Of a DNA stretch of 35,838 nucleotides, positions 1-32,002 are shown piece after piece (positions within the stretch are counted from its first letter, which is position 1; every line of letters starts with the position of its first letter). The position numbers were made by a program, and so were the translations under genes. Below the pieces are notes generated by a model that was not told the DNA's origin, searched no databases, and was given only the letters and a program-made list of their open reading frames with translations. This DNA comes from a virus, in IMG/VR virus record IMGVR_UViG_3300000117_000096, positions 1-35,838 of that record; one strand, 5' to 3'.

Positions 1-3000
1 CATACCTAAACCATCCATAACACTTTCTACTTGGTTAATACCAGCAGCAGGGGATTCTAAGATACTTAACACCTCACGAGGATTGACAAAAGCTCCTGCT
101 TCTAGCTCTATTCTTGTTCCCATATAAGCAGCAAATTGGTATCCCCAATTATCTTTTTTATCTTCATCATCTGCTAGATTATTTAATAAATTAGCCAACA
201 TAAAAGAAGCGGCAATAAACACAATATCTGCCCAAGCTTTTTTGACATTTTCTCTTTCATAATCTTCTAGATTACTCATAGCCATTGTTGTAAAGTTACC
301 TTTATTAGCAATAAGCCCTTTAATAACTTTGTTAAAGAAAGTTTTATGATACCCTTCTTCCATCTGTCCTGTAGAGTAATTATATCCTTTTTCTTTATAC
401 CTAGCTTCAGCACCTGATAATAACCATCCCCTATGCGTAAGGATTAATCTTCCCCATACATTTCGTTGAAAAGCACTTCTATCAAGGTCTGATATTTTAC
501 CGTCTATCTGGTCATTTATTTGACTAGTAGTGTTTTTAACAATGTCTTCTAATTCTGTATTAATTGCAGATTTATATTTATCTTTAATTTTTACTACACC
601 ATTTACAGCTTCATAAGCATCATATAAAGTAGTACTAGTTGACTCCCACTTAGCCTCAACATCCTCTTTATTTTGCATTTCACTTGTTAATTGTTTCTTA
701 GTCATAAATTTTCCGTCTATAAATTTATAACTGTGGTACATAGAAAGCATTACTTTTCCTTTTATTTTATAATCTACTGCTTCATAAGTACTGTAAACTC
801 CTGAATCAAATAATGCTCTACCAAAAGCATTTTTAGTATTCATATTTTTAAATACATCTGTAGTACTTTTACTGATATTATTATATTCAAATAAAAGTGC
901 AACTTTATTAGTTTTCTTTTTAGAACCTATTTGAGATACAATAGCTGGTAAATTTTTCCATATCTCTTTATCTGCCCATAGTTTATCTTTAGAAGAAAAG
1001 TACTTGCCTGTTACAGCCTCTACATTATTGTAAGCAGTACCCATTACAGCATTTGCAGTATGAGTAAAAGGATTAAAAGCAAGGTTATTACGCCTAACAT
1101 AAGAATTAAAAGAGTCTAATATTTTACTTAAATATAAAGGCTTACCTTTAATCATAATATCCTTACCTCTCCACGACATAGGAGACTCAGAAACCTTCTT
1201 TTTACCGTATAAATGAGTATCTAAAAATACATCCATCATTTGATAGGTATTAGTTTCTATACCTTCTTTTTGAACGTCACCTTTCTTATACTTTCTTTCT
1301 CCTAATACTTCTTTTACTATTAACATGTCATCTGCTAAGTCTATTTTAGACTCAAAATTTGCTGCCATGTCATAATAAGCTACGTACATACTAGTAATAT
1401 CGTCAGTTAAGTTAGTCATATCATCTAACTTTCTATTATAGTGAATAGGAACTGCTTTACTCAGTTCGCTGTCACCATATTCAGTATCGTCTTCTTGTCT
1501 TAGACCTGTTTCTTTTACTAATTCTTTTATATTAGAAAATATTCCTTGCTCCTTAGACTTTAATCTGTCAAGTAAATCTTTTCTTATCTGAGGCATAAAG
1601 AATTTACTACGTTGATGTCCTTTAGGTAACATATCAGTAGCCTCTTCTTTTATTTCTAGTAGTTTATTATAATATTCTTTTTGTTTACCTGTTATAGTTT
1701 TAAATACAGGATTTAAATACTTATTAGCAGGAGACTTACTTTGCATATTATAATTTTCTCTATAAAAAGTTTTCCAAAGGTCTGTGTATACTGCACTGTC
1801 TCTATCAGATAAGTATTGTTTATCTATTTCATTATAGTTTTCAGCACCTAATGCTTTTGTAATAGCCTTTTTAGTTTTTTCCATTTCTCCATAAAACTCA
1901 CCATTGTTATATTTAGAAATTAAATTACCTGTTTTTTTACCTTTATTTTTTCCTGTAGTATATTTTTCATAGAATTTACCAAAATCTTTAAACCCTGTTT
2001 GCTCTAGTTCTACATGAATATTAGAAAGTTCCTTACCTTTGCTTAACACTTTTCTTTCAACAGCGTTTTTAGCTTTTTTAAACATGTCATAAACTATATT
2101 TAAAATCTCTTCAGAAGCGTGTCCCATACTTAATAAGTGTCTTCTTATTGGAGAAGTGTCTTTATCAGTCATTTTTAACAACTCTTCAGCTACATTGTTT
2201 CCAGATTTAGTATTTTTTTCTATAATTGCTGCTGCTGTTTTAGCTTTAGTTCTATTATAAAATAATTTAATTTTAGCAATAGTAGAATACACTTCTTCAG
2301 CTGCTTCATACACTGCTCTTCCTTCTTCGGTATTTTGAATATTAATATCATCAGCAAAGAAACCTAATAAATCAGCTAAAGTATTTTCATGAGTAACAAT
2401 AAAATCATTTATATCACGTAAAACAGAAGAACTTAAAACTTCTAAGTCGTTATTAGTTCTATATGCATTAATAATTTCTATAAGACTACTAGCCTCAATA
2501 GCAGCAGTATCAACATAGTAACCTATACCTGCAACAGCTTGTTTATTCATAATAGCAAATTTTATATCTTTAATAGTGTCTTTTATTAAAGATACGTCTC
2601 CTTCTGGAGTAAACTTTCTTTGCAGCTTTTTTAAACGTATTTTAAGTACTTCTAAAGATTTTTCAGCTTTTTCTATAGCTTCATCTTTCTTTTTATTTGT
2701 TTTTTGTTTGTATATTCCTAAATTAACCAAGTTAGCTGTACTTCCTGCTAATTTATTACTTACAATATCTTTTGCTATAGAGCCTGTAATTTCATTTACT
2801 TCTGTTATAAATTCATTTCTATCTATTTTCTTAAATAAACTCTTTATACGGTTCCAAATTCTACCTATAACACCTTTTATCCTATCATTAGTTTCAGTGC
2901 CTGTAAGTTGCTTAGAAACAGCTTTACCAATAGCTTCTTTTTTTATTTTAAGTATATTAGGACCAACTACTTCACCTTTTTTATTTTTTAATTGATAATC

Positions 3001-3603
3001 TACATCGTCTTTATATTCATTATAAGTCTCTCTATAAATAGGAGTTTCTTCTATAATATCTAATAGGCGTTTAACCATTGGATTATTACTTCCTAATAAC
3101 TCTATCGCAATATGAGCAGCCTCCTCTGGTAAAGTACTAAAATCAGCTTCTTTTTTAGATACTAATATAAGCCTATTAGCAATATCAGCAATAGCTACTG
3201 CATCATAGCCTCTTTCTTTAAGTGTTTCTACAAACTCTACAGAAATACCATAGCTTGATAAAAAAGTTTTAAGTTTAGCTTCTAACTCTACGTCAATTTC
3301 TTGCTTGTTTTTATTAGGTTTTTTCTGTTTATAGATACCCTCACCATTCTCAAGATAGTCTTTAGCATAATCTATTTGCTTAAACATCTCGCTATTAGGA
3401 ATAGCTTTTTTACCTCCCTCTTCTTCAAAGAAAAGTTGTCCGTCTACATTATAGTCTTTCTTAGCTTTTATACTAAATTTTCTATTAGCTTGTCTAAACT
3501 TAGGTAAGTTTTTAATACTAAGCGTACTGTCTATTAGACCGTTAGTTCTGAACCATGCTTTAGTAGCTGATTCTGTGTTATTAAATGCACAATTCTTTGC
3601 CAT
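1..3603 (-). CDS. Giant virion internal (cargo) protein, 3' end beyond the window
   Basis: Reading the minus strand from the ATG at 3603-3601 gives 1201 codons with no stop down to base 1, so the gene continues off the window and its C-terminus is missing. It begins MAKNCAFNNTESATKAWF. The start lies 11 bases after the TAA of the RNA polymerase gene, with a weak purine-rich AAAAGA upstream. The protein is Lys/Glu-rich and mostly helical. Residues 150-170 contain LPEEAAHIAIELLG, a Glu-rich stretch around H164 that recalls a zincin-type helix but is not a classical HExxH. A hydrophobic segment (DIVFIAASFMLANLL) lies near residue 1130. Its position last in the cargo cassette, next to the virion polymerase, suggests a packaged internal protein or RNA polymerase-associated subunit. 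That role is inferred; I recognise only the general resemblance to crAss-like giant proteins. Confidence 0.8.
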   Translation of the reverse strand, partial: MAKNCAFNNTESATKAWFRTNGLIDSTLSIKNLPKFRQANRKFSIKAKKDYNVDGQLFFEEEGGKKAIPNSEMFKQIDYAKDYLENGEGIYKQKKPNKNKQEIDVELEAKLKTFLSSYGISVEFVETLKERGYDAVAIADIANRLILVSKKEADFSTLPEEAAHIAIELLGSNNPMVKRLLDIIEETPIYRETYNEYKDDVDYQLKNKKGEVVGPNILKIKKEAIGKAVSKQLTGTETNDRIKGVIGRIWNRIKSLFKKIDRNEFITEVNEITGSIAKDIVSNKLAGSTANLVNLGIYKQKTNKKKDEAIEKAEKSLEVLKIRLKKLQRKFTPEGDVSLIKDTIKDIKFAIMNKQAVAGIGYYVDTAAIEASSLIEIINAYRTNNDLEVLSSSVLRDINDFIVTHENTLADLLGFFADDINIQNTEEGRAVYEAAEEVYSTIAKIKLFYNRTKAKTAAAIIEKNTKSGNNVAEELLKMTDKDTSPIRRHLLSMGHASEEILNIVYDMFKKAKNAVERKVLSKGKELSNIHVELEQTGFKDFGKFYEKYTTGKNKGKKTGNLISKYNNGEFYGEMEKTKKAITKALGAENYNEIDKQYLSDRDSAVYTDLWKTFYRENYNMQSKSPANKYLNPVFKTITGKQKEYYNKLLEIKEEATDMLPKGHQRSKFFMPQIRKDLLDRLKSKEQGIFSNIKELVKETGLRQEDDTEYGDSELSKAVPIHYNRKLDDMTNLTDDITSMYVAYYDMAANFESKIDLADDMLIVKEVLGERKYKKGDVQKEGIETNTYQMMDVFLDTHLYGKKKVSESPMSWRGKDIMIKGKPLYLSKILDSFNSYVRRNNLAFNPFTHTANAVMGTAYNNVEAVTGKYFSSKDKLWADKEIWKNLPAIVSQIGSKKKTNKVALLFEYNNISKSTTDVFKNMNTKNAFGRALFDSGVYSTYEAVDYKIKGKVMLSMYHSYKFIDGKFMTKKQLTSEMQNKEDVEAKWESTSTTLYDAYEAVNGVVKIKDKYKSAINTELEDIVKNTTSQINDQIDGKISDLDRSAFQRNVWGRLILTHRGWLLSGAEARYKEKGYNYSTGQMEEGYHKTFFNKVIKGLIANKGNFTTMAMSNLEDYERENVKKAWADIVFIAASFMLANLLNNLADDEDKKDNWGYQFAAYMGTRIELEAGAFVNPREVLSILESPAAGINQVESVMDGLGM

Positions 3604-3614
3604 ATTCTTTTATT

Positions 3615-6600
3615 TTAACATTCTTCAAAAGGATTGTTAGAGTCATTATCTATGTTTTTCCACTTCTTAAGTTCCTCTGCGTCTAACTCTTCTGTAGGTA
3701 TACCAAAAGCAGCGGAGGCATCACTTGTAGAAGGTTTAGGAGTAGCTACTTGTTCTTCACTTCTATTGTAAAGACTTAAAATAGCTCTTCTATTTCCGTT
3801 TTCTGGTCCCCAGTTCATTATTTTGCCAGTTACACTTGATATAATTTGCTCTTTATTGTTTACTATATAGTCAGTACCTTTAAAAGTAACTTTTTTAGCT
3901 CTTCCTTCTTTAATCGCTAGGTTAGCAAATATTTTATTTCTATCAACACTGTCTGTTTTAAATACCTCTTGTTTTTTAGAGTTAAATATTTTGTTTCCTG
4001 ATATAGTATATAACTGTTTCTTTTTTCCTTTAGGGGTATAAGTAACATTTTTAATAACACTACTTGACACATTAAAATCAAACCCTATTTCCTCTAATAT
4101 TTTTTTATTACTATCTGTATCTTGTACATTATTTAAAGTAATAGGTAACTCTAGACTAATATCTTTTTTACTTGATACCGCACCTCCAGGTACTCCAGTC
4201 ATCGGGAGTCTTAATCCTCCCTTTAGCTCAAGTATTTGCCAACCGTTTGGCAGCTGAGTACCTTTTGCATCAGAATAATATTTTGTAGCTATTAAATTAA
4301 CATTAGGTTGATTTTTAATGTCTATTTTATATCCTTTAATACCAACTGTACCATTTTCTTGATTTCCTTCTATAAATACTTCAAAAGTTTCTAATTTATT
4401 ACTTACTGTAATATCTTCTGGTTTAAAGTCTACAACACTTGTTTCAACCTCAGTAGTTTGCTGTGTTGGTTGTGTGTTTAATTTACCAGTGTCAAACCAT
4501 TCTTTACTAAAAATAATATTAGAAGGAATATTACCAGCTGCATTAAACATTTCAATCATTTCTAACCCTGTATAACCATTTAAAGAAGCTTGTGTAGTAT
4601 TCCTATAAGCTACTTTAAATTCTTTATTAGGATTTTGTTTAGCTACATCATATAAAGATTTAATAGATTCTGTAATTTTTTCAGGAGAAATAGATTGTAA
4701 ACCTCTATTTTCTTTTACTCTTAAATCTTTAGTAGGTAAAGCATAAGCATTACCTTGTAAACCTTCCCCTTGACCATACTTAGCCCCAAATTGGTTTTTA
4801 GCGATTTTAGCAGCTCCTGCACCATGTCTGCCTTCTGGATTACTTCCAAATACAAATACTGTATTAGGTTCTGGAGTTATATTACCTTCATAATATTTAA
4901 CCTCACTAGTTTGTGGTGCTGAAGATTTTAATTGGTCTGCATATTCCTTTGGAAAAACATCCTCTATATCTTCTTTACTTAAAGCAAGTGATTCTATAGA
5001 TACTTTTGCAATATCTGTACTTTGACCTTTCTCAGGATACCACACTTGTATAGGAAGTAAACTAATTGTATCAAATTCAATCTCTTCATTAAGATTTGTT
5101 AATATAGCACTTGCATTTTGTTGTTTACTATATCCATCTGCTTTTGAAGGTTTGCCGTTCCAAGATTTACCTAATTTACCTTCAGGTGTTTGCTTATATT
5201 TATTATTAGGGTCTACTCTTACAGTTTTAAAATCTACCAAATGTTTTTCACCTGTTTTGTGATTTAGAACAACCATGTCCATTTCAGTTGCAATACCATA
5301 AGAAAGTTTTCTATCTTTAGGTGAAGTTATGGCTTTATCTATATCTTTCTGAGAAGCTTGTATATTACTACTTATAAAAAGACCTTCTGTTAAAAACTCT
5401 ATATTATCTAAACTTCCATTTTCATCTTTCCACTGATTTTTATATTCTTCTGCAGTTTCTATTAATTGATTAAAAGCATCTTCAGTTAAGTTTTTTGCTA
5501 TGTCTTTTGTATATTCCAAATCTTTTCCTGCAAAAAAGTCTCTTAAAACTTTATCCGACTTATTACCAATAGGTATAGCTCCTGTATATAGCCCTTCTTC
5601 GTCTTTAAATTCAGAAGGATTAACTATTGAAGAAAGTCCTATGTATCTATTACCGTCTTTATCTTCGTAATATCTATCTTCACCCTTATTTACTAACTCT
5701 ATTTCTTTAGGATTAGAGGTTAAAATTTCTTTAACTTTCTCAGTTGTTATTTTCTTTTGCGAAGGTACAACTTTTTCTCCAATTTTCCTATTGTTTTTCT
5801 TTTTTATTTTGTTTAATTTTTCTCTTCCTTCTGCAGATAAATTATTTTCTGCTTCTTCTATACTTTGCATATGGATAGAATCTTCAAGACCTAAAGATTT
5901 TAACACGTTTTTTAAACTTTCAACACTACCAGAACGCCAAGGAATAACTTCTCCTTCAAAATTAAATTCTATTACATTTTCTTTTACAACAGTTTTTCTC
6001 ATGTGAGAAGTATATTCATCTGTATGTTTTTTAAAGTATTCAAATTCTTCTTCTGATATGTTTACATCGTCTTCTATGTTATTTAAAAATTCTTTGTAAG
6101 AAAGTATTTTAAGTTCGTTTTTAGCATAATTTTTAGCTATTTCAGTAAATGCTTTTCTAGTTTTTAAATCAAGTTTAATAGTTTCATTTAAGTACCCTCT
6201 TTTACCTGCTTTAGCCATAGGATAGTAGTAAGCAACTGTAGGAGTACTTGTAAAAGTATTAAGAAGCATAAGAGACTGATTAGCTCCGTCTTTTATTTTA
6301 ATTACTTTTTTAAATACTTTTTTACCTTCTTTGTTTGTGGTAAAAATATTGCTAAGTTTTAACTCCTCACTTTTACTATCTATTCTTAAAGATACAGGAG
6401 TACCGTTACTGTCTCTTTTAAGATGCAGACGGTCTACATAATCTATATCATCTTTTAAAGTATATACAAAGTTGTATCTATCATAGTTATTACGTAAAAA
6501 AGATAATTTAAAATCATTATAAGCTTCTACATCGTTTTTTCTATCGTCTATCTCTTGTTTAAGAAAGTCTTGAAATTTAAGACCTTTAGAGTCTGTTAAA

Positions 6601-9600
6601 TTACTGAAAAAAGAAATAGGAACTAAGTGATTAAAACTACTAGGAGTAAATACAAATCCGCTATTTAAAAAAGAATATTTAATTAGTTTTTCAGCAAACT
6701 CTTTATACTTAGGATTTTCTAATAGTTCTTCAAAATGTTCTTCTATCTCTTCTTTTTGTTCTGGAGAAAGTTTAGAAGTATTATTAAACTCTAATCTACT
6801 TAAAGAAACAGGTAATGGAACATCATTGTTTATATTAGCAAGTATATCGCTTTCAGTTATTTCTATCTCTTCTGTTACTACATCAAGATTTTTAGTAAAT
6901 ATATTTTCATTTTTTAAATAAGGGTCGTTATTAATTTCTTTCAAAACTTCTGCTGGAAAAGAATACAACATATTTTCCATCTCTTGTTGGTTTGATTGAA
7001 AAAATTCATACCCTGAACCTATATAAGACAGTAAAGAATAATTAATAAACTCTATTTCTTTTTCAGTAAGGTCAAAACCTTTATTTTGCTTAAATTCATT
7101 TTTAATAGCTTTAAAAGGTGTATTTAACCATGGAAAATATTCTTTCATTTTTTCCATAGGCTTAAGAATACCTTCTTCTGTAAAAGCACTTAACATAGTG
7201 TAAGTATCAGAATTAAATAAGTCTGAAACTCCTTGTAATTTTTTATCTAAAATAGCTTCATCATACTTATCTCTAAAGACCTCAGCATTTGCTATAGTAG
7301 GTCCAAACCCTTTAGAATCAGCTCTAGTTGCAGCTACTAAGTTCTGTAAAGATTTAGCGTTGTCTCTATGTGATTCAAATAATCTAAGTACAGCTAGTTG
7401 ACTATTAGCGTCTGCGTTTTCTCCTGCTTCAACCATTTCTGTAAGACCGTGGTACTCTAAGCCTTTGCTTATAAACCTGTCTTCTTGCATGTTTACATAA
7501 ATGTATTTTCCATCCTCAGTAAATCTATCTGTGGCTCCATACTGCATAAGTTCATTAGCGAGTTCTTCTACTATACCGTCATACATATACTCTTTACCTC
7601 CATTATTTAAAAATTCTGAAGATAATCTACGAATAATAGGTTGATTTAAAAACATTGCTATAGTTCTTAAATCAAATCCTGTTCTAATTAAAGCAGCGGC
7701 TACATCAGCAGTAAAAGTATTAATATTTAAATCAGTAAGTACAGGGTCTTTAGCGTTATCAACAGAAGCAGCTAAAAACTGTGCTAATGTGTTGGAGATT
7801 AAAGTCCTGTCTTTTTTAGTACTATTTAAAGTATCTTGACGATTTAAGTTTTTACTAGTCATTCCTCCTAACATCATAGGAAAAGAAAAACGCACATCAC
7901 TATGCTGTAACATAGCATGACTAACATTGTGATTAGCAAAAATACCAATAAGGTCTGCACCATTCATGTTTCTAGAAAATAATTCTAACTGACTAGAAGG
8001 CATGTGCATTTTAATTTTTGAAGAGGCTCTTCCTGAAATAGTGTTTAATTCTTTTTTAAGGTCTTGAAGCTGGATAAAGTTACCTGGAGTTATAATCTCT
8101 TCAGCATGAGCAGGGTCTTGTAATATGCCCTTCATAATCTCAAGCATATAATTATTTCTAGCTTTTTTATCTTTTTTAGTAGGAGTTATGTATTCTATTT
8201 CTTGAAAAGAAGTATAAACCTCATCTACTGCTTGTTTAATATCCTTATTAACACCTTCTAAATTAACTTCAGAAGTCTCTAATACAAGGCTTAATTGTTT
8301 CTTAGTTAAACCTGGAAACTCTTGCTGTATATATTTAGTTAACGCGTCAAACTTTAAATTTACCTTAAATTCAGGCATCATTATATAAAGTTTATCAATA
8401 TCAAAATCTGTACCTGCTCTTTTAGTAATATCAGCAGGTAACATAGCAACGCCCCCTGCTTCTTTAGGAGAAAATCCTACTACTTTAATAATAGGCATAG
8501 AGTATTTATCCTCTGTTGGAATACGGAAACCAATAAGTTCTCTAAGTTTTTCGGGTACTTTACTGATATCTACTTGACCGTCTTCAAGTGTTGGAAAATA
8601 TTCTTTAGACCACCAAGGCAGAATAGCTTCCATTTCTTTAATATACTCTTGTTTCTTGCCCTCTTTATCTGTTCTTTCTCCAAATACCACATTAAGTTCT
8701 TCAGAAAAACCAAAATCAGATAATTGTACAAAAGAACCTCCTTTAATTTTTTGTTTAGTTACTCTATTCTTAAACAAACTAGTCATTAAAGCTTCATTTC
8801 TTTTTGCAGATAAAGGAAAATATAAAGGAAACTCAAATTTTCCTTCTGTATTTAATTCAATAGCATCAAGATATTTTTGTCCTAGACCTCTTTCAAGTAT
8901 TTCGTCCTCAAGTAAAGAAGCTAATTTTTCTCTGTTTTCAGGTTTAAATAGTTCTGCTAATTCATCATACTCTTCGATAACATTAGCACTTACTAGTTCA
9001 TTAAATAACTTAGAAACATCTTCAGACCTTACTTTCTTTCCTTGTATATTGTACTCATAATCTTTTTCAGCTAAATTTGCTAAAATTAATCTTCTTATTT
9101 GAGTACCTACTGTAATAGTAGTATCTACGTGATGCTCAGGAACTGCTAACTGTATTCTATAGTCTTCATTGTTTAATTCAACAAAGTTTTTATCCACTAA
9201 TTTTTTAATATCAACCCCGTCTTTAAATACACTGTTTAAAGGCATTATATTGTGAGCTCCTACCTTAACAGCGGATTCAAACTGAACAGAGCTTACGCCT
9301 TCTTTAAACATATCTAAAATAGTTTCTAGTTTTTTATTACCTTTAACCATTTGAGGTAGTAATAAAAATTCAGAGTTTTTATTTTGTACAGGCACTATAG
9401 TACTATTATTTAAAGTTTTGCCATACATAAAAGGTTTAATAGGCTGTGCAACTAATTGTAGTTGTTCTTCAGTAGCTACTCCTGCTTCTAAATCTGCATA
9501 TGCTGCATCTTCTTTAGTTCCCCATGTGCCCATTCCTCTACGTATACTTCTGTATCTTTTTAAAGAAATATAAGCCTGTGCATCAGTAGCATTTACATCT

Positions 9601-12600
9601 TCATATTGAGCTAATATAGCTTTTGAGTGAACAGAGTCTTTAAGTATTTCTTTGTATTCGTTATATACTTTAGATTTAGCTATTTCATCTTGCAGGTATA
9701 TAGTTTTATAAGTTGCTGAATCCATTTCAGAAATATCTAAAATATTACCAGGATTAGTTATTTGTTTATGTCTTTTAGATAAATCTTCGTCATTTTTATA
9801 AAACGCAGTGTCTCCTGAAAATAGTTGTAGCATTTGTATATTAGCTAAAGTACTATTATAAGCATACGCTTCTACAAAATTAGCAGGATTATTATACCCA
9901 AAATAATCAGAAACACCTGATTCAAAATAAGAAGCTCCTTCTGTTTCTGAAAGTATACGTAAATCTTGTAATTGTTTAGTAGTAGCTTCTATTTCTTTAG
10001 CCATATTTTTAGCAATAACCTCTTTAACTTTTTCTTTATTGCTAATAGCTATGTTTTCAAGCCCTTCAAAATAATGAAATTGCAATCCTTTAGCAGCTGC
10101 TTTTTGTTCTGAAGATATTCCTGACTTTCCTGTTTTATTTTCTCCAGAGTAGTGGTAATTTAAAATAAGTTTATTATCAGGTAAAGTTCTTTGTTCTTCT
10201 TTAACTTTCTTTATTCTTTCAGACTCTTGAAGTGCTACTTGATATAAATGTTCAAGAGATTCTTCAACTGTATACTTTTTAAAAGAAATTAAATTCATTT
10301 GAGGAGCATCTGCTAAAATAGGAGACACATAATAACCCCATTCACTGTTACCTTCGTTAGACCAAAGATTAAGTTCTGCAGCTTTTCTTTCAAAGTCAGA
10401 CATTTTACTGTACTGTACTCCTGTATCTGCACCTTTTTCTTTATACCCATCAAGAACTTTTCTTTGAAATAAATTTCTATTTTCTTTAGATTTAAGAAGT
10501 TCTTTTAACCACAAGTGTCTTTTATAAAATTTATCTTGTTTATAAAAATCAATTACATTTTTATAGTTTTTACCTTTAAGTTTATGAACTAAACTAGATA
10601 TGTGATTAGGAGCTACAGTAGCAAATACTTGTTTACCGTTTACATTAATAAGAGCTTGCTCACTTAAAGTATCTCTATTTTCAATAGCTGCTTGCAGAAA
10701 AGGTCTTAAAGCTTTTGTTTCATTTTGAGTACTAATAGAAAAAGGATTATTTCCTTTTAATATACTTGGAAATACAGTATTTAGAATACCATTTTCTCCT
10801 GTAAAGTAACTAGCAAAAACATCTTCAGCAGGTATAACAACACCGTTTTCTTTCTTTTCCTGAAATAATGACTTAACTTCAGCAGGATTTATTGCTATTC
10901 CTGCTTTGAATAGTTTAGAAGCAATAGTACGAGCGTGATTATTACTTATCTCTCCTTCATTTTTTATTTTTCTTAACGCCCCTTCTATAGATTTTTGAGC
11001 ATTTTCAACATTCTTTTTAGCAGCAGGACTTAGTTTGTTTTTATTATTACGATTATTTAGTATAAACAAACTATTCCACTCAGACATTAAAGTCATATTA
11101 GGATTACGCCTATTAGAGTCTATAAAATTATGTCTAGTTGAAAAACCACCTTTACCAGTGTAGTCTTCTTTTTGTAATAAAAGATATTCTACTTGTTGAG
11201 TAGCCATAGTAGAAAAGAATGCTGCTTTAAATTCTTTGTCTGTTTTTATTAAATCTATAACTTTTTCTGCATAAGGTTTAGATTTAACCATACTCTCTAA
11301 AGTCTCTACCATCTCATCTATAGTAGTATGTTCTTTTAGTCTGCTTTTTAAAGTATTAAAAGCTTCATCAAATGCTATACGTTTTGGGTATCCAAGAGTA
11401 TCAAGTTCTTCTATTAGTTCTCCTTTTTCATTTAATGTAACAGCGTCTAATTTAGCTAAAAAATTCTTTACTTTATAAGTAGTAGTATCTTTAGTAGAAA
11501 GACTTGCTCTACCTACTTGCCAAGCTTCAAAAGATTCCGTTATATCTTCATCTACCTCTAAATTTTCTCCTTCTTGTACGGCTCCTTCTTCTATGCTTTG
11601 TTTAAGAGTGGCTTTTATACCATATTTACGTAAAGAATTAACAGCTTCTTTTAAAAGAGGACCTCCTATTAAACTACCGTCTACGTCTTCTCCTGCTGCT
11701 AAGTTATTTAGTGCTAAAATTAATTGGTCTTCTTGGTATTTATATTCAGCATTATCAGGAAATGCAGCCACATCTTGTTCTACATCTTCTAAAAGACTTT
11801 CTAGTTGACTATAAGCACTGTCTTCATCTGTTCCTAGATATAATTCATGCAAGGAAACTGCTTTAATAATCTCAACGTCTGTCATAGTAGGATTAGCCTT
11901 TGCATAGTCTGCAATAGCATCTAATACAAAAGTATTAATCATATCTATTCTATCTCTCTTTTCAACAGGAGACATTCCAGGGATTTTCCACCTTGTTACA
12001 GGGCTAAAAGTTGGAATTGATTTACGAAGTTTACCTAGAGAGTTTCTACCATAATAACCTTCATTAATCGCTTTAAATAAATCATTAATACCTGAAGAAT
12101 TTTTGCCTGTTATTTGTCTAATAAACCTACCTAGGTTTTTAAATAACCTTTTAATTCCTGCTACTAATCCTTTTTTTGGTGTATTAGAAAGTACGTACTC
12201 TGCAAAATCATCAGCTAAAGCCTCTTCTAGTTCTACTTCTGTTTGTAGTCCATATTGAGCTTGTGCCTCTACTAAAAGAGCTGCTCTTTGCTTTTCATTA
12301 AGATATAAATGAAATACTGCGTGAAAAGCTTCGTGATAAGCTGTACCTTCTCCTGCATTGTTAGCTATATAAGTAGCTGCATTTTTAAAGACGCCCCAAG
12401 CCTCTCTACCTCCTGAATCAGCAATGTTACTAATATCCTCTACTACATACATAGGAACATTAGGTAAATTCTGTTTCATCCAAGCACCTGCTTTAGCTTT
12501 GTCCCATTTTTTATAATCACCGTCTTTTACAGCTATTTTATGTCTTATTGTAGGTTTACCTAGTTTTTTACTTTTTTTAGTTTTTCCACTTTTCTTTCTT

Positions 12601-15600
12601 CTAATAGGTGCTTTATCTGCAGAACTAGTTTTAGTAGCATATTTGTCTTTAGTGCCTTGAGCCCATTCTTCAGCGGCATCTTTAGCAGCTAAACTTTTAA
12701 GTTCTTCAGGGTCAAGTTCTCCCTCTATTTGGCCAAAAGCAGCACTAGCATCACTTTGTTTTTTATTTTTATTTGAATTTTTAGACCTACGTTTAGGAGT
12801 TTCTCTACCTTCTATAGCATTCATTACAAAAGGAACTGAATGCATTGTTGTACCAACAGATAAAGAAGTTTTTACTTTGTCTCCGTCAATAGATTCGTTA
12901 TAGTCTTCTGTATTTATTTCTTTAATACTTACTTGTGCTCTTTTATCTTTTAAGAAATCTAAAAGACTGTTAATATCAAGAGCTTCTGTATAGCCTTGTT
13001 TACCATTAATAAAAGTTTTAACTAAGAACATGCCGTCCTTACCTTTAGCAGGTACTATATCAGCAAATACTATCTTATTTATTTTTTCTTTAATTGCTAT
13101 TTGTTCATCTAATTGATTGTCCCCTACTTCAACAGCATTAAATTCTTCTAGTAAATCCCTTACTTGCTCTAATTCCTGTTCATTGACTTTTCTAGTCATT
13201 ACTCTAACAGGAATATAAGAACCTGAAGCATTTTTTTTAATTGCATATACTGCACCTGCAACAGCTCCTTTAACTGCTTCTACAGTTACTACACTATTAG
13301 GAACTTCAATTACGATAGAATCTACTCTTTTTCTTCCTATACCAAATAACAAAGGTTCTCCTTCTTTTAATGTTTCAGAAACTGCATGTGCTTTTTCAAA
13401 AGAATTAATATTTTTATCTATATGAACTCTTCCAGTTTCTTTGTATCTAACTGTAGTAGAAAAATCAGTTTTAACTATACCTGTTTTATTACCTAAATCT
13501 TGAAGTATAGCTTCTCTAATAGTCTTTAATGACTCATTAGCTTCTTTAGTACCTTCAGCAGTTTTAGAAGTTTTATAAGAAGCAAGTGCTCCTACTACGT
13601 GTCTATTTCCATCTTTATCATAATGCACTAAAGAAACAGGCAGAGCTTCATTTAATCTCCCCTCTTTTATAACACGTTGCATATAAGGAGAGTTTAGCAT
13701 TTCAGTATCTACCTCTAACTCAATAGTATCTCCTTTTTGTAAATTTTCAGTATTTACATGGTCCCAATCTATATTAAAAGGATTTTCTTCCTCCTCCATT
13801 GTAAAGGTTCCATCTTTTTTTCTTTTATATTGATAACCAGTACTTTTTAAAGGGTTACTTTCTTCAGTGTCTTTATATTGAGTACCAAGAACTAAAGAAA
13901 AACTGCCTTCTTTGTCGTCTACTATTTCTACTTCTTCTGAAGGAATTTCTTCTGACTCTATTTCTTCTAGTACTTCTGCTTCTACATTTTTATAGTACTC
14001 TTCTATAATAGGCATTATTTGACCACTAGCTGAAGAAATACTTTGTTCATATATTTCAGAAATAAACGTATCCATAGGAATAATTCTATTTTTTTTATTT
14101 CTAGGAAGTACTCTTGCTCCAAAATGGCTTTCTAACAAAGAAGATAGTTCTTCTTTTTCTTTTTCAAATAACTCAGGATTATCTTCATATCTACTTTGTA
14201 AAGACTCTATAATATTATTTTTATCGTAAGCAGGTACATTTCTTCTAGTTGTATTTGCTGTATCATCAATTTTTTTATTTACTGCGTCTACTGCTTCTGA
14301 AGATGTTTGTTCAGCTTTTTCTCTTGCCGCTTCTAATTCTGCTTCAGTTTCAGCGTTTTCTAAAATTTCATCTATTTGCTTTTTAGCTTCTTTAGCAAGG
14401 TTAGCACGTAAAACTTTCTGAGCTGCGGTATCTGCTTTTTCAAAAGCTGCTGCTCCTTTAGGCGTAACTAATAAATTATATAAATCAATAAACTCTTCTC
14501 TTCTATTTTTAAGTTTAGCAATATCTAATAATAAATCTAAAGCTTCTTTTTCTTTAAGAGTAGCTTGAGTAGGATTATCTGCTTTCCATTGGTTTAACAT
14601 AATCCCTGCTTCTTCCATAAAAGCTTCTGGCTCTACACCTATTCTGGCTCCTTCTTTTGTAGCCTCTACTTTGAGTGTTCCTTCAAGGTCTTTTAAAGCA
14701 TTATAGTCTAGTGCTTTTTCGCTAGAGGAAAGCTCATTTAATTGCCCTACTTTTAAACCTAGTCTATTACCTAGTTTATTACGTTCTTTAGTTTCCTCTT
14801 TAGTAAGTTCTTGGGTTCTTCCTTTCTTTAATAACGCAAGTAAGGGTTTAGAATATTTAGAATATTTAGCTCTATTAGAAATTTCTATTACTTCCGCTTC
14901 ATTTAAATTAGTAATTTCTGATAACTTACCTATTAATTCTTTTTCTCTGATTTCAGTATTAACCATAGTAGAAGCCGCATGTATTAAGGTTTCTTTAACC
15001 GCCTCTGCAGCTCTACTATTAATTTTAGAACTATCTAAAAGATTATCTACTGTGTTTGAATGCTCTTCTATTCTTTTAACTTGTCTAAAAGCTTTATGAA
15101 TCATATCTTTCTTAGTCTCCTCTGTAAAGTCTGTAACACCCTCTACTCTAAACTCGTTATTGAAAGTCTCTAAATCCATCTCAGTCATAGCTTTTAAATC
15201 TGCTACAACCATGTCTAACATATCTGCTTTAGCTCTACTTCTTACATAAGAAAAGAACTGGTCATGCTCTAAGTTTTTAAAAGAAAATATATCATTAGCC
15301 TCTATTGCTTGGTCCATATCTTCTTGAATACCCATGTTTCTTACATAGTTTTCATAAGAAGCTTTTATAGATTTAAAAGCACTAGGGTTTTTAGCAAGTT
15401 CATCTGAAAGTTTTTGAATAGTCTCTCTTTTACTTTTAGCTTCTCTTATAGTTTCCATAAAACCACCAGCCATAGCAAAGTTAGCATCTCTACCAGTAGC
15501 TCCTTTAACCATTCTACGTCCACCTACAGGCACTCCTAATAGCCCTATAAGGAATCCCATACCCATAGAAGTACTACCTTCTGCAGAACCAAAAAACTCT

Positions 15601-17000
15601 TCAGAACCTCTACTAACAGCTTCCATTCCTTTAATAGCAAAAATATTCTCGTTTGCACTGTATTTTCTAGAGTAATAGTCTAATGAAGAATTAGTTGTAA
15701 TACCTTGAGAAGTTTCTTCTAACATCTCTGTTACAGGTGTTTTAAGTACAGTAACAAGCCTGCTAGCAGATTTTTTTAAAAGTCCTTCTTTAGCAGATTT
15801 ACCTAAAGCCTTTCTTTCAGCTTCTTTCATTATTTCTTCTCCAGCTTCTTTTAGTGCTTTACGCTGGCCATTAAACCCTTTCCAAAATACTTTAGGAAAT
15901 TGAATAAGATTACTAGCTCCTAATAAAGCTAAGTTAGTACCATATACTGCCCATTTAGACGCGTCAACACCTTGCTCTATTTTTTCTAAAGCTAATCCTG
16001 ATGGAGGTTTTCCATTAAGAGAAATGTACTCTTGAATTAAAGCTGTTCTCATTTCTTCAGCAGCTCCTCTTGCTTCCATTGAAGCTTCATAGTTAGTACC
16101 AATAAGAAGCCCTCTACCTGTTCCAAGAGCAGCTCTATATTGTTCTATCTGTGCTATTTGCTCACTACCTTCTTTAAGTTTAGCTAAAGTTTTAGCGGCA
16201 TCAGTCCCTTTGTCTATACCTCTAATTGCTTTTACTACTTTACCTGTATTACCTAGTTTGCTCCATATACTTGCACCTTGTTCTGCTAATTTTGCAGTTC
16301 TAGCTGCTTGTATTCCTCCAGCAGTACCTAAACTAGCTCCTGTAATTGCAGTTAATAATAATTCTTGCCCTATAGCGGATGCAGCAAAAGATAAACCATC
16401 TGAAACCTCATCTCCTAATAACTTACCTGGATGATAAGCCATTTTTGCAAAAAACCCTTTATCGTAATACTCATCTTCATTAGTGTAGATAGGCATAGCC
16501 TCATCCATTTTTTTGTCTAAGGACTCAGAAGCATCAAAAATTGGGTTATCCATAATTTGATTTGCGTCCCATGAAAATAAAGCAGCACCTAAACCATAAA
16601 CAGTACCCGCAAGTCCTAATACAGTTCTATTTAAAGTTTTACCTACAAATTTACCTATACCATTAAAAGCTTCTCCATAAGTCTGTTCAGCATCTAGCTG
16701 TTCCATTCTAGCTACTCTAGCCTCTTGAAATCTTTCAGAAGACTTATTAAATAATTGGTCCCAATTAGTATCTCTTCTTAGTTCGTCTTTAAAAATAGTT
16801 TGAACTTCAAAAGGGTCTGATTTTGCGCTAATACTTCCAGATACATCTTGAGGTTTTAATAACTCTCTAGTATCTAAAGTAGTAGTAGAATCTGATGCTG
16901 ATGTAAATTTTCCTAGTCCTTTTTCAAAAACTTTTTGTATTTCTGATTTACTTTCTGACTTTTCTGGAAGATTAGTAAGTGGGTCTAAATTGTCTGCCAT
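3615..17000 (-). CDS. Giant multidomain virion RNA polymerase (crAss-like), fused to cargo, zincin, nuclease and macro-like regions
   Basis: This 4461-residue protein carries DFDID at residues 2865-2869 (context RAGTDFDIDKLY), the metal-binding DxDxD signature of the single-chain virion RNA polymerase of crAss-like phages, which is delivered with the DNA to transcribe early genes. Domains in order: hydrophobic segments at about 127-143, 203-230, 350-368 and 479-494, resembling internal ejection proteins; Glu/Lys-rich coiled-coil stretches to about 1410; a Lys-rich linker with SDASAAFG at 1416-1423; a zincin-like helix HEAFH at 1556-1560 with E1592/E1593 as candidate third ligand; the polymerase region; a PD-(D/E)XK nuclease-like domain (D3908, D3923-F-K3925); a macro-like domain (GSNPEGRHGAGA from 4052); and a second SDASAAFG at 4426-4433. 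From memory, phi14:2 gp66 is roughly half this length. It lies 9 bases after the 768-residue cargo gene. The polymerase call is strong; accessory domain calls rest on motifs. Confidence 0.88.
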   Translation of the reverse strand: MADNLDPLTNLPEKSESKSEIQKVFEKGLGKFTSASDSTTTLDTRELLKPQDVSGSISAKSDPFEVQTIFKDELRRDTNWDQLFNKSSERFQEARVARMEQLDAEQTYGEAFNGIGKFVGKTLNRTVLGLAGTVYGLGAALFSWDANQIMDNPIFDASESLDKKMDEAMPIYTNEDEYYDKGFFAKMAYHPGKLLGDEVSDGLSFAASAIGQELLLTAITGASLGTAGGIQAARTAKLAEQGASIWSKLGNTGKVVKAIRGIDKGTDAAKTLAKLKEGSEQIAQIEQYRAALGTGRGLLIGTNYEASMEARGAAEEMRTALIQEYISLNGKPPSGLALEKIEQGVDASKWAVYGTNLALLGASNLIQFPKVFWKGFNGQRKALKEAGEEIMKEAERKALGKSAKEGLLKKSASRLVTVLKTPVTEMLEETSQGITTNSSLDYYSRKYSANENIFAIKGMEAVSRGSEEFFGSAEGSTSMGMGFLIGLLGVPVGGRRMVKGATGRDANFAMAGGFMETIREAKSKRETIQKLSDELAKNPSAFKSIKASYENYVRNMGIQEDMDQAIEANDIFSFKNLEHDQFFSYVRSRAKADMLDMVVADLKAMTEMDLETFNNEFRVEGVTDFTEETKKDMIHKAFRQVKRIEEHSNTVDNLLDSSKINSRAAEAVKETLIHAASTMVNTEIREKELIGKLSEITNLNEAEVIEISNRAKYSKYSKPLLALLKKGRTQELTKEETKERNKLGNRLGLKVGQLNELSSSEKALDYNALKDLEGTLKVEATKEGARIGVEPEAFMEEAGIMLNQWKADNPTQATLKEKEALDLLLDIAKLKNRREEFIDLYNLLVTPKGAAAFEKADTAAQKVLRANLAKEAKKQIDEILENAETEAELEAAREKAEQTSSEAVDAVNKKIDDTANTTRRNVPAYDKNNIIESLQSRYEDNPELFEKEKEELSSLLESHFGARVLPRNKKNRIIPMDTFISEIYEQSISSASGQIMPIIEEYYKNVEAEVLEEIESEEIPSEEVEIVDDKEGSFSLVLGTQYKDTEESNPLKSTGYQYKRKKDGTFTMEEEENPFNIDWDHVNTENLQKGDTIELEVDTEMLNSPYMQRVIKEGRLNEALPVSLVHYDKDGNRHVVGALASYKTSKTAEGTKEANESLKTIREAILQDLGNKTGIVKTDFSTTVRYKETGRVHIDKNINSFEKAHAVSETLKEGEPLLFGIGRKRVDSIVIEVPNSVVTVEAVKGAVAGAVYAIKKNASGSYIPVRVMTRKVNEQELEQVRDLLEEFNAVEVGDNQLDEQIAIKEKINKIVFADIVPAKGKDGMFLVKTFINGKQGYTEALDINSLLDFLKDKRAQVSIKEINTEDYNESIDGDKVKTSLSVGTTMHSVPFVMNAIEGRETPKRRSKNSNKNKKQSDASAAFGQIEGELDPEELKSLAAKDAAEEWAQGTKDKYATKTSSADKAPIRRKKSGKTKKSKKLGKPTIRHKIAVKDGDYKKWDKAKAGAWMKQNLPNVPMYVVEDISNIADSGGREAWGVFKNAATYIANNAGEGTAYHEAFHAVFHLYLNEKQRAALLVEAQAQYGLQTEVELEEALADDFAEYVLSNTPKKGLVAGIKRLFKNLGRFIRQITGKNSSGINDLFKAINEGYYGRNSLGKLRKSIPTFSPVTRWKIPGMSPVEKRDRIDMINTFVLDAIADYAKANPTMTDVEIIKAVSLHELYLGTDEDSAYSQLESLLEDVEQDVAAFPDNAEYKYQEDQLILALNNLAAGEDVDGSLIGGPLLKEAVNSLRKYGIKATLKQSIEEGAVQEGENLEVDEDITESFEAWQVGRASLSTKDTTTYKVKNFLAKLDAVTLNEKGELIEELDTLGYPKRIAFDEAFNTLKSRLKEHTTIDEMVETLESMVKSKPYAEKVIDLIKTDKEFKAAFFSTMATQQVEYLLLQKEDYTGKGGFSTRHNFIDSNRRNPNMTLMSEWNSLFILNNRNNKNKLSPAAKKNVENAQKSIEGALRKIKNEGEISNNHARTIASKLFKAGIAINPAEVKSLFQEKKENGVVIPAEDVFASYFTGENGILNTVFPSILKGNNPFSISTQNETKALRPFLQAAIENRDTLSEQALINVNGKQVFATVAPNHISSLVHKLKGKNYKNVIDFYKQDKFYKRHLWLKELLKSKENRNLFQRKVLDGYKEKGADTGVQYSKMSDFERKAAELNLWSNEGNSEWGYYVSPILADAPQMNLISFKKYTVEESLEHLYQVALQESERIKKVKEEQRTLPDNKLILNYHYSGENKTGKSGISSEQKAAAKGLQFHYFEGLENIAISNKEKVKEVIAKNMAKEIEATTKQLQDLRILSETEGASYFESGVSDYFGYNNPANFVEAYAYNSTLANIQMLQLFSGDTAFYKNDEDLSKRHKQITNPGNILDISEMDSATYKTIYLQDEIAKSKVYNEYKEILKDSVHSKAILAQYEDVNATDAQAYISLKRYRSIRRGMGTWGTKEDAAYADLEAGVATEEQLQLVAQPIKPFMYGKTLNNSTIVPVQNKNSEFLLLPQMVKGNKKLETILDMFKEGVSSVQFESAVKVGAHNIMPLNSVFKDGVDIKKLVDKNFVELNNEDYRIQLAVPEHHVDTTITVGTQIRRLILANLAEKDYEYNIQGKKVRSEDVSKLFNELVSANVIEEYDELAELFKPENREKLASLLEDEILERGLGQKYLDAIELNTEGKFEFPLYFPLSAKRNEALMTSLFKNRVTKQKIKGGSFVQLSDFGFSEELNVVFGERTDKEGKKQEYIKEMEAILPWWSKEYFPTLEDGQVDISKVPEKLRELIGFRIPTEDKYSMPIIKVVGFSPKEAGGVAMLPADITKRAGTDFDIDKLYIMMPEFKVNLKFDALTKYIQQEFPGLTKKQLSLVLETSEVNLEGVNKDIKQAVDEVYTSFQEIEYITPTKKDKKARNNYMLEIMKGILQDPAHAEEIITPGNFIQLQDLKKELNTISGRASSKIKMHMPSSQLELFSRNMNGADLIGIFANHNVSHAMLQHSDVRFSFPMMLGGMTSKNLNRQDTLNSTKKDRTLISNTLAQFLAASVDNAKDPVLTDLNINTFTADVAAALIRTGFDLRTIAMFLNQPIIRRLSSEFLNNGGKEYMYDGIVEELANELMQYGATDRFTEDGKYIYVNMQEDRFISKGLEYHGLTEMVEAGENADANSQLAVLRLFESHRDNAKSLQNLVAATRADSKGFGPTIANAEVFRDKYDEAILDKKLQGVSDLFNSDTYTMLSAFTEEGILKPMEKMKEYFPWLNTPFKAIKNEFKQNKGFDLTEKEIEFINYSLLSYIGSGYEFFQSNQQEMENMLYSFPAEVLKEINNDPYLKNENIFTKNLDVVTEEIEITESDILANINNDVPLPVSLSRLEFNNTSKLSPEQKEEIEEHFEELLENPKYKEFAEKLIKYSFLNSGFVFTPSSFNHLVPISFFSNLTDSKGLKFQDFLKQEIDDRKNDVEAYNDFKLSFLRNNYDRYNFVYTLKDDIDYVDRLHLKRDSNGTPVSLRIDSKSEELKLSNIFTTNKEGKKVFKKVIKIKDGANQSLMLLNTFTSTPTVAYYYPMAKAGKRGYLNETIKLDLKTRKAFTEIAKNYAKNELKILSYKEFLNNIEDDVNISEEEFEYFKKHTDEYTSHMRKTVVKENVIEFNFEGEVIPWRSGSVESLKNVLKSLGLEDSIHMQSIEEAENNLSAEGREKLNKIKKKNNRKIGEKVVPSQKKITTEKVKEILTSNPKEIELVNKGEDRYYEDKDGNRYIGLSSIVNPSEFKDEEGLYTGAIPIGNKSDKVLRDFFAGKDLEYTKDIAKNLTEDAFNQLIETAEEYKNQWKDENGSLDNIEFLTEGLFISSNIQASQKDIDKAITSPKDRKLSYGIATEMDMVVLNHKTGEKHLVDFKTVRVDPNNKYKQTPEGKLGKSWNGKPSKADGYSKQQNASAILTNLNEEIEFDTISLLPIQVWYPEKGQSTDIAKVSIESLALSKEDIEDVFPKEYADQLKSSAPQTSEVKYYEGNITPEPNTVFVFGSNPEGRHGAGAAKIAKNQFGAKYGQGEGLQGNAYALPTKDLRVKENRGLQSISPEKITESIKSLYDVAKQNPNKEFKVAYRNTTQASLNGYTGLEMIEMFNAAGNIPSNIIFSKEWFDTGKLNTQPTQQTTEVETSVVDFKPEDITVSNKLETFEVFIEGNQENGTVGIKGYKIDIKNQPNVNLIATKYYSDAKGTQLPNGWQILELKGGLRLPMTGVPGGAVSSKKDISLELPITLNNVQDTDSNKKILEEIGFDFNVSSSVIKNVTYTPKGKKKQLYTISGNKIFNSKKQEVFKTDSVDRNKIFANLAIKEGRAKKVTFKGTDYIVNNKEQIISSVTGKIMNWGPENGNRRAILSLYNRSEEQVATPKPSTSDASAAFGIPTEELDAEELKKWKNIDNDSNNPFEEC
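3669..3725 (-). repeat. SDASAAFG boundary motif, copy 2 (C-terminus of the RNA polymerase giant)
   Basis: Residues 4426-4444 read SDASAAFG followed by ELDAEELK, about 17 residues before the protein ends with NPFEEC. This matches copy 1 at 12696-12755 in the first eight residues and in the ELDxEELK part, with the same spacing to within one residue. A C-terminal tag used for packaging or cleavage is possible but unproven. Confidence 0.6.
12696..12755 (-). repeat. SDASAAFG boundary motif, copy 1 (inside the RNA polymerase giant)
   Basis: Residues 1416-1435 begin SDASAAFG and continue to ELDPEELK. The motif sits in a Lys/Arg-rich, probably disordered linker between the N-terminal cargo-like region and the zincin-like domain. 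The same pattern recurs at residues 4426-4444 of the same protein. Two copies about 3000 residues apart at apparent domain borders suggest a boundary or processing signal. Function is inferred. Confidence 0.6.
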
Positions 17001-31090: not shown

Positions 31091-32002
31091 TTATCGTCCT
31101 TTTATGAACTTTTTAAAAGCAGTATTAGGTATTACATAATCAGTGCTACATTCTTTGCATTCCATATGCCTTTTAATAGTACCTGCTGCAGTTACTGTGT
31201 TCTTTATATACTTAACATCTTCTGTTCCACATTGAGGACAGCTGTGTTTTCCTTTACCTTTATGTACTCCTACATGTGTATTAGGTTTAATATAATCTTT
31301 AAGTTTATTATATACATCTTCTAAAAGAACTACATCGTGGTCACAATACTCAACCATTTTTGTCATTGCCTCTTTAGACTTATGTAAGATTATATCATCC
31401 CATAGTTTCATTCCTGTAGGAAGTTTATGACCAAAACCTAATACACTGGCTATGTAGTCAAGTTTATTACTTTGGAAGTTAAACATAGATTTAACTTTTC
31501 TTAAAGTGTCTAACGATTTAATATAAGTTCTAAAAGGAATTCCTTGCATTAAACAACGAGTTCTAAGCCATTTTATATCAAACCTATCTCCATTATGTGC
31601 AACTACTTCATCAGCCATTTCCAACTGTTTATTAAAGTCTATAAGTAGTTGTTTGTCACATTGGTTGTCATCCCATTTAAGATTATATACCTTATCTTCT
31701 CCTTCCCATTTCCATGACACGCAAATTACTGCTCTTTCATGAATAATGTCTCCTGGATTTATATTTAAGTTATAACCAGCTCTCCAGGCTTTTACTATGT
31801 TATAACTAGTTTCAATATCAAAAAACATTCTTTTAAAATCATTGTTTCTTTCTTCAATTTCTTTTGTTTCAAAATGTATTTCATTAATGATACTGTCAAT
31901 TTCTTTATAAGTAGATTTAAACTTATCTGCAAGTTTAGCTTTTCCCCATTTAATATATCCTCTATTCTCCTCTAAAAACTTCTTTATATTCTTTCTTTTC
32001 AT
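31091..32002 (-). CDS. DnaQ-like (DEDDy) 3'-5' exonuclease with a C-terminal zinc ribbon
   Basis: The 303-residue product has the three exonuclease motifs of the RNase H-like DEDD family. Motif I is FDIET (D62, E64), motif II is HNGDRFDIKWL (D142), and motif III is Y219-CDH-D223, the Tyr-type (DEDDy) form. These residues would bind two metal ions and remove nucleotides from 3' ends. Residues 1-45 look like a small helix-turn-helix (KLADKFKSTYKEIDSII). The C-terminus has a zinc ribbon, CPQC (255-258) and CKEC (282-285), probably for nucleic-acid binding. It is a stand-alone exonuclease, not attached to a polymerase, and opens the connector operon behind a predicted promoter. Proofreading, DNA-end processing during packaging, or host DNA breakdown are all possible. 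Confidence 0.85.
   Translation of the reverse strand: MKRKNIKKFLEENRGYIKWGKAKLADKFKSTYKEIDSIINEIHFETKEIEERNNDFKRMFFDIETSYNIVKAWRAGYNLNINPGDIIHERAVICVSWKWEGEDKVYNLKWDDNQCDKQLLIDFNKQLEMADEVVAHNGDRFDIKWLRTRCLMQGIPFRTYIKSLDTLRKVKSMFNFQSNKLDYIASVLGFGHKLPTGMKLWDDIILHKSKEAMTKMVEYCDHDVVLLEDVYNKLKDYIKPNTHVGVHKGKGKHSCPQCGTEDVKYIKNTVTAAGTIKRHMECKECSTDYVIPNTAFKKFIKGR

Follow-up and report, generated by a model that had tools for sequence, protein, structure and literature searches.

A single reading frame of 4461 codons

The window analyzed in this study, a linear virus record of 35,838 bases, contains a reading frame of 4461 codons (positions 3615 to 17000 of the minus strand) that begins with ATG and encodes a chain of about 500 kDa. 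The locus raises the question of whether this chain is genuine and, if so, what is gained by joining a virion RNA polymerase to a cargo protein, a protease-like domain, and further enzyme-like regions. The answer that we consider probable is a virion cargo polypeptide in which the polymerase doubles as a delivery chassis for exchangeable passengers. The features of the window are listed in Table 1.

Table 1. Positions of the giant frame, its parts, and the neighboring gene in the window
Feature	Positions	Strand	Basis
4461-aa fused ORF: cargo protein, zincin, virion RNA polymerase, and passenger tail	3615..17000	(-)	ORF analysis, relatives
gp47-type virion cargo protein, residues ~93-880	14361..16724	(-)	blastp to crAss001 gp47
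Predicted zincin metallopeptidase-like domain, residues 1498-1623	12132..12509	(-)	HMM, alignment, AF2, profile and fold matches
Crass-like two-barrel (predicted) virion RNA polymerase core, residues 2249-3469; catalytic DFDID at 8394-8408	6594..10256	(-)	6vr4_A, alignment
PD-(D/E)XK-like stretch (D...VDFK), residues ~3808-4030	4911..5579	(-)	40% identity to L015 stretch
Linker repeat copy 1 beside the passenger, encoding SAPQTSEV	4899..4922	(-)	Repeat pattern search
A1S_2505/phrog_2072 passenger domain, residues 4035-4174	4479..4898	(-)	NF049995 and phrog_2072 profiles
Linker repeat copy 2 beside the passenger, encoding PTQQTTEV	4446..4469	(-)	Repeat pattern search
C-terminal region, residues 4191-4461, 94% identical in L002	3618..4430	(-)	Comparison with L002
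gp49-type RNA-polymerase-associated cargo subunit, cut by the contig end	1..3603	(-)	Homology

The 4461-aa frame is genuine and is neither a product of chance nor an assembly join. With the stop frequency taken from the other frames, the absence of stops in 4461 codons by chance has a probability of p~1e-259. A single open frame of the contig IMGVR_UViG_3300023198_001063 (L002) matches residues 526 to 3773 of the window protein with 91% identity; the differences between the two fall on codon positions 1, 2, and 3 in a ratio of 193/113/465, with one 1-codon indel and zero frameshifts, and thus the junction is not an assembly join. In the same comparison, the blocks from 1601 to 2200, which span the junction between cargo protein and polymerase, resemble the remaining blocks. 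A sequencing or assembly artifact that fused two genes, which had been named beforehand as a case against the fusion and for which the metagenomic origin of the contig and the occurrence of both halves as separate genes in isolates could be cited, is extremely improbable, since the independent contig keeps the frame open with its third-position bias across the junction and 33 polymerase ORFs have the same order in frame. The single frame of 4461 residues in the original prediction was confirmed, and so were its motif positions, namely, HEAFH at residues 1556 to 1560, DFDID at 2865 to 2869, DFK at 3923 to 3925 (in ATEMDMVV...HLVDFKT), and the GSNPEGRHGAGAA loop at 4052. A near-identity search of annotated phages with the window gave no match.

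The giant protein contains two copies of a 20-residue peptide, SDASAAFG...ELDxEELK, one at residue 1416 before the zincin and one at residue 4426 at the extreme C-terminus (window positions 12696-12755 and 3666-3725, minus strand); the duplication is significant in this protein (score of 62, with shuffles reaching <=48). As the peptide does not recur in other fused proteins, we rejected the idea that it is a sorting or cleavage signal of general use.

The gp47-type protein (or its positional equivalent) and the polymerase are encoded by separate genes in phi14:2, crAss001, Dulem virus 41, and L003. In the retrieved loci, some of which are partial or near-duplicate, the zincin is in frame with the polymerase in 33 of 92 polymerase ORFs, and the gp49-type subunit is fused as well in ten ORFs, the longest of which has 5711 aa. 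Crass-like virion RNA polymerases (vRNAPs) of "up to ~6000 aa" have been described in a review (PMC10136315), and a PDDEXK domain has been reported for some large crAss transcription proteins (PMC7886860). That one frame joins a vRNAP to a cargo protein, to a zincin, and to other enzyme-like regions therefore holds, but it is not the striking architecture that was anticipated; giant size and fusion are ordinary within the crAss-like group.

Virion RNA polymerase core

The polymerase part spans residues ~1822 to 3520 and matches the polymerase of phi14:2 (6vr4_A) with an E value of 4.4e-60 (phmmer, PDB); crAss001 gp50 is 31% identical to the window polymerase over 1249 residues. In an alignment of eight phages, including phi14:2, the DFDID motif falls in the invariant GxDxDxDK column, and its assignment to a crAss-like virion RNA polymerase, made at the outset from the motif, is well founded. 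Because the 6VR4 alignment covers both halves (residues 2256 to 3263), two double-psi beta-barrels are predicted in the single chain.

Three loci, namely, bajarodcaudo virus 1 (L008 15995-16890), cr116_1 (L094 13665-14506), and L022 (11596-12429), have a polymerase gene that is divided close to the catalytic motif. In bajarodcaudo virus 1, the split lies at DFDID, and an ORF annotated as an endonuclease sits between the halves. Insertion of homing elements at the active site could account for the three splits. Another polymerase ORF (L061 12321-16385) carries an in-frame SF1/PIF1-like helicase at its end. The gp49-type subunit of L002 (L002 12181-16668) has a 225-aa insertion near residue 90 that is edged by IYKQK/VYKQK repeats and has no counterpart in the window. 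Elsewhere in the window, a DNA polymerase exonuclease-like gene (31091-32002, minus strand; phrog_403, 8e-57) is located within the structural block.

C-terminal tail and passenger exchange

The tail beyond the polymerase core has 992 aa, compared to 236 aa in crAss001, i.e., it is ~750 aa longer. A nuclease had been proposed from the D..DFK motif. The motif D...(D/E)xK is in place, but this stretch of the window gave no Pfam match, and the homologous stretch of L015 matched PDDEXK_1 with an E value of 0.002 and 18.6 bits, below the cut-off of 22. The domain that follows matches NF049995 (A1S_2505) with an E value of 6.6e-30 and 103.6 bits, against a curated cut-off of 45, and phrog_2072 with 1e-32. 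The loop at residue 4052 had been taken as macro-like. The loop is present and lies within the A1S_2505 domain, for which the searches speak neither for nor against a macro fold: Pfam Macro (PF01661) had no match in this domain or its 55 relatives, PDB profile searches with 8 and 56 A1S_2505 sequences gave no significant macro match, and the chikungunya macro domain (E value of 1.7) and E. coli YmdB (hhalign probability of 0.2%) aligned at the same loop without significance. An AF2 model of residues 3690 to 4461, built from seven sequences, had a mean pLDDT of 40 and was too poor for use.

The C-terminal domain of the window protein is an exchangeable passenger that is common to many vRNAPs at differing positions. 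The polymerases of cr112_1 and crAss001 are 97.3% identical, and apart from A1S_2505, which is cleanly inserted in frame at residue 62 of the cr112_1 protein, they show no large difference. Kolpuevirus "frurule" and cr126_1 have polymerases with 87.5% identity; A1S_2505 sits close to the end of the core in the former, and NADAR sits close to the N-terminus in the latter. In L002, the slot that holds A1S_2505 in the window is occupied by a weak GNAT match and DUF7831, and the flanks are ~95% identical; in both contigs, the exchanged part lies between nearly identical linker repeats. Three copies of a 27-nt repeat, the top-ranked repeat family in L002, bound the GNAT-like and DUF7831 modules and encode a P(A/T)QQ(T/S)(T/S)EV-like linker. 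When the window was searched for repeats by itself, the linker repeats did not stand out; they are prominent in L002 only. The zero chance expectation obtained for the linker repeat is not independent, because the search pattern was derived from the window and L002 sequences. At L002 9749-9751, an in-frame TAA (GAA in the window) ends the giant ORF just before the PDDEXK-like/passenger tail, and the frame is open beyond it. This codon may reflect natural truncation, readthrough, or a sequencing error; as it falls between the polymerase and the passenger tail, L002 may not depend on the two being attached.

Among 79 new A1S_2505 relatives on viral contigs, a biased sample since crAss sequences served as seeds, 40 share their ORF with a match to the polymerase profile. 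With the earlier loci included, 46 ORFs have both A1S_2505 and the polymerase core, and the passenger is C-terminal in 32, N-terminal in 10, and internal in 4. A1S_2505 is up to 86% identical between proteins whose cores share only ~20-22%, but identity contrasts alone could reflect differing rates, since crAss polymerases evolve fast; the pairs that differ by presence or absence are the stronger evidence for exchange. Other passengers found with Pfam are ART-PolyVal, cpYpsA SLOG, NADAR, DUF7831, PDDEXK_1, an SF1 helicase, and a STAND-type NTPase. A chain thus contains several unrelated enzyme-like domains in an architecture that varies between relatives, which is the hallmark of polyvalent proteins.

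In searches of whole records (43 crAss-like records, plus L002 for DUF7831), 18 of the 19 matches to A1S_2505, NADAR, ART-PolyVal, and DUF7831 lie within polymerase, gp49-type, or fused ORFs, although several of the matches come from one genome and are not independent. The polymerase/cargo ORFs make up 19% of the searched sequence; because the four families were picked as first seen in polymerase/cargo genes, the count indicates exclusivity and does not give a clean p-value. The nineteenth match is in a large ORF whose neighbor on that contig resembles the gene for the 1522-aa virion structural protein of the window. One crAss-like contig (that of L017, G023) has four ART-PolyVal matches across three cargo/structural ORFs.

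These observations could also be read as neutral drift in a fast-evolving gene, with an ordinary giant vRNAP whose passengers are structural spacers or helpers of the polymerase. Fusion and splitting are indeed frequent, many polymerases have no recognized passenger, and the C-terminal domain of the N4 vRNAP regulates the polymerase (PMC12633501). We nevertheless consider this reading rather unlikely, since the passengers belong to families of enzyme-like domains known from conflict systems (ART-PolyVal, NADAR, SLOG), unrelated phages encode some of these families as free-standing proteins, and each exchange replaces a whole unit while the flanks stay conserved.

Cargo part and zincin domain

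Residues 1 to 1650 correspond to a gp47-type cargo protein, as crAss001 gp47 and its relatives match residues ~93 to 880 (24.8% over 630 aa to crAss001 gp47 with an E value of 3e-22, blastp; E value of 1e-22 for residues ~96 to 880) and residues ~1490 to 1650 match the C-terminal end of gp47-type proteins with 35-43% identity. This protein is encoded by a separate gene in crAss001, Dulem virus 41, and L003. It is a virion cargo protein that is distinct from the channel-forming gp45 (PMC10172136). The N-terminus, which the original prediction described as ejection-protein-like, is thus of virion cargo type, as judged from the gp47 match, but not of the channel-forming gp45 type; hydropathy analysis found zero transmembrane segments in it.

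The HEAFH motif (12321-12335, minus strand) is followed by a second conserved Glu within EEALADDFAEY, and 44 HMM hits of the local set preserve the domain as G-T-x-Y-H-E-A-F-H and then E-E-x-L-A-E/D-x-F. The AF2 model of this region has a pLDDT of >90 over the core. Six PDB profile matches were obtained, all of which are Zmp1/PPEP with weak E values of 0.17-0.28. Foldseek with a 451-residue model listed no significant match, and VIA-align, confined to Foldseek's candidates, gave PPEP, PprI, and lethal-factor-type zincins with Z scores of 5.4-7.3 (PPEP-3, 7.3; PprI, 7.1). Since these several independent signals, each weak alone, agree, we accept a predicted zincin fold for the HEAFH domain, in line with the protease-like character ascribed to the motif from the start.

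The position of this intact zincin, directly before the polymerase and at the end of the gp47-type part, would suit a self-processing polyprotein, in which the zincin cleaves the chain into cargo protein, polymerase, and effectors during or after ejection; zincin processing of multidomain injected polypeptides has been proposed (PMC5512222). However, in the five largest three-subunit fusions (L049, L050, L053, L065, and L066; 5472-5711 aa), which hold three subunits per chain, the zincin is degenerate (YWEAFRR/YWEAMRR), and no other HExxH was found anywhere in the chain; the zincin is therefore not generally required for polyprotein cutting. Moreover, unfused phages keep the zincin at the end of its own protein, where there is no polyprotein to cut. 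We regard self-processing as quite unlikely.

Comparison with known systems

The polymerase of phi14:2 (PDB 6VR4; gp077 in KC821624) has a homologous core with the same GxDxDxDK motif, and a gp076/gp49-type subunit comes after it in the same gene order as in the window. As the original prediction stated, the phi14:2 polymerase is a shorter, separate protein (2180 aa), and it lacks the zincin, PDDEXK-like, and A1S_2505 regions of the window protein. Its gene is overlapped by the upstream cargo gene by one base, whereas the window has one frame. The phi14:2 homologues carry MS/MS-based annotation as virion proteins. The gp47-gp49-gp50 set of crAss001, all found in virions by mass spectrometry (PMC10172136), represents the same three protein families as the window; in crAss001, they are encoded by three genes, with gp47 on the opposite strand, while the gp47 and gp50 types form one chain in the window.

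Similar to the window protein, polyvalent proteins are giant multidomain chains with an RNA polymerase, a zincin, and exchangeable enzyme domains, and their injection is expected; they include N4-like vRNAPs fused to zincin-like MPTases (PMC5512222). Their polymerases are of the T7/N4 type, whereas that of the window is of the unrelated crAss type, with two predicted barrels. The crAss phages are mentioned neither in that paper nor in the NAD-ADPr survey. The giant crAss-like vRNAPs reported previously are of the same size class, some with PDDEXK, and neither passenger exchange nor NAD/ADP-ribose-type domains were found in those reports (PMC10136315; PMC7886860). In P23-45, too, an RNA polymerase with homology to cellular RNAPs is part of a larger virion protein, of 5002 aa (PMC10770324); unlike that of the window, it is fused to the tape measure protein of a long-tailed phage. 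No report of a crAss-like polymerase fused to an ADP-ribosyltransferase was found in open-access full text. The crAss polymerase, its giant size, and PDDEXK are already known, as is a zincin beside the virion polymerase in N4; the gain, loss, and replacement of passenger domains within an injected polymerase appear to be new and undescribed.

Proposed delivery of the passengers

The frame links a gp47-type cargo protein, with the predicted zincin at its C-terminal end, to an early-gene RNA polymerase of the gp50/phi14:2 gp077 type, and an array of passengers makes up the C-terminus. The giant chain would be packaged in the capsid, ejected before the DNA in a partly unfolded state, and refolded inside the host, where the polymerase would begin early transcription, as in the model for crAss001 and phi14:2. 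We infer packaging and injection of the window protein from its homology to the virion proteins of these two phages detected by mass spectrometry. The small enzyme-like domains (A1S_2505 here; GNAT/DUF7831, NADAR, ART-PolyVal, SLOG, and others in relatives) are gained, lost, and swapped at the linkers with the core undisturbed. With the polymerase as a delivery chassis, the passengers would enter the cell among the first proteins, ahead of any phage gene expression, and may act at once on host defence or on ADP-ribose/NAD-type molecules. Such roles are suggested by the family names (ART, NADAR, SLOG) and by the argument that NAD/ADP-ribose-type domains of this kind are virion-packaged (PMC9503650).

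A broader version, toward which we are somewhat less than evenly inclined, is that the polymerase and its cargo partners form a general exchange platform. Conflict enzymes (A1S_2505, DUF7831, NADAR, ART, SLOG, and GNAT) would then travel between phages as cassettes via recombination at linker repeats and, delivered before expression, would re-arm phages against host defence through the head or tail of the polymerase.

Among the viruses of the human gut, the crAss-like phages are the most abundant, and, to our knowledge, few of their anti-host functions are known. The pairs crAss001/cr112_1 and "frurule"/cr126_1 are natural polymerase pairs that differ mainly by one passenger domain. Since "frurule" and crAss001, two of these four phages, are grown in the laboratory, the chassis idea is directly testable. 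If the polymerase carries exchangeable effectors, the place to look for anti-host functions of these phages would be inside the giant cargo genes, in which standard annotation conceals them.
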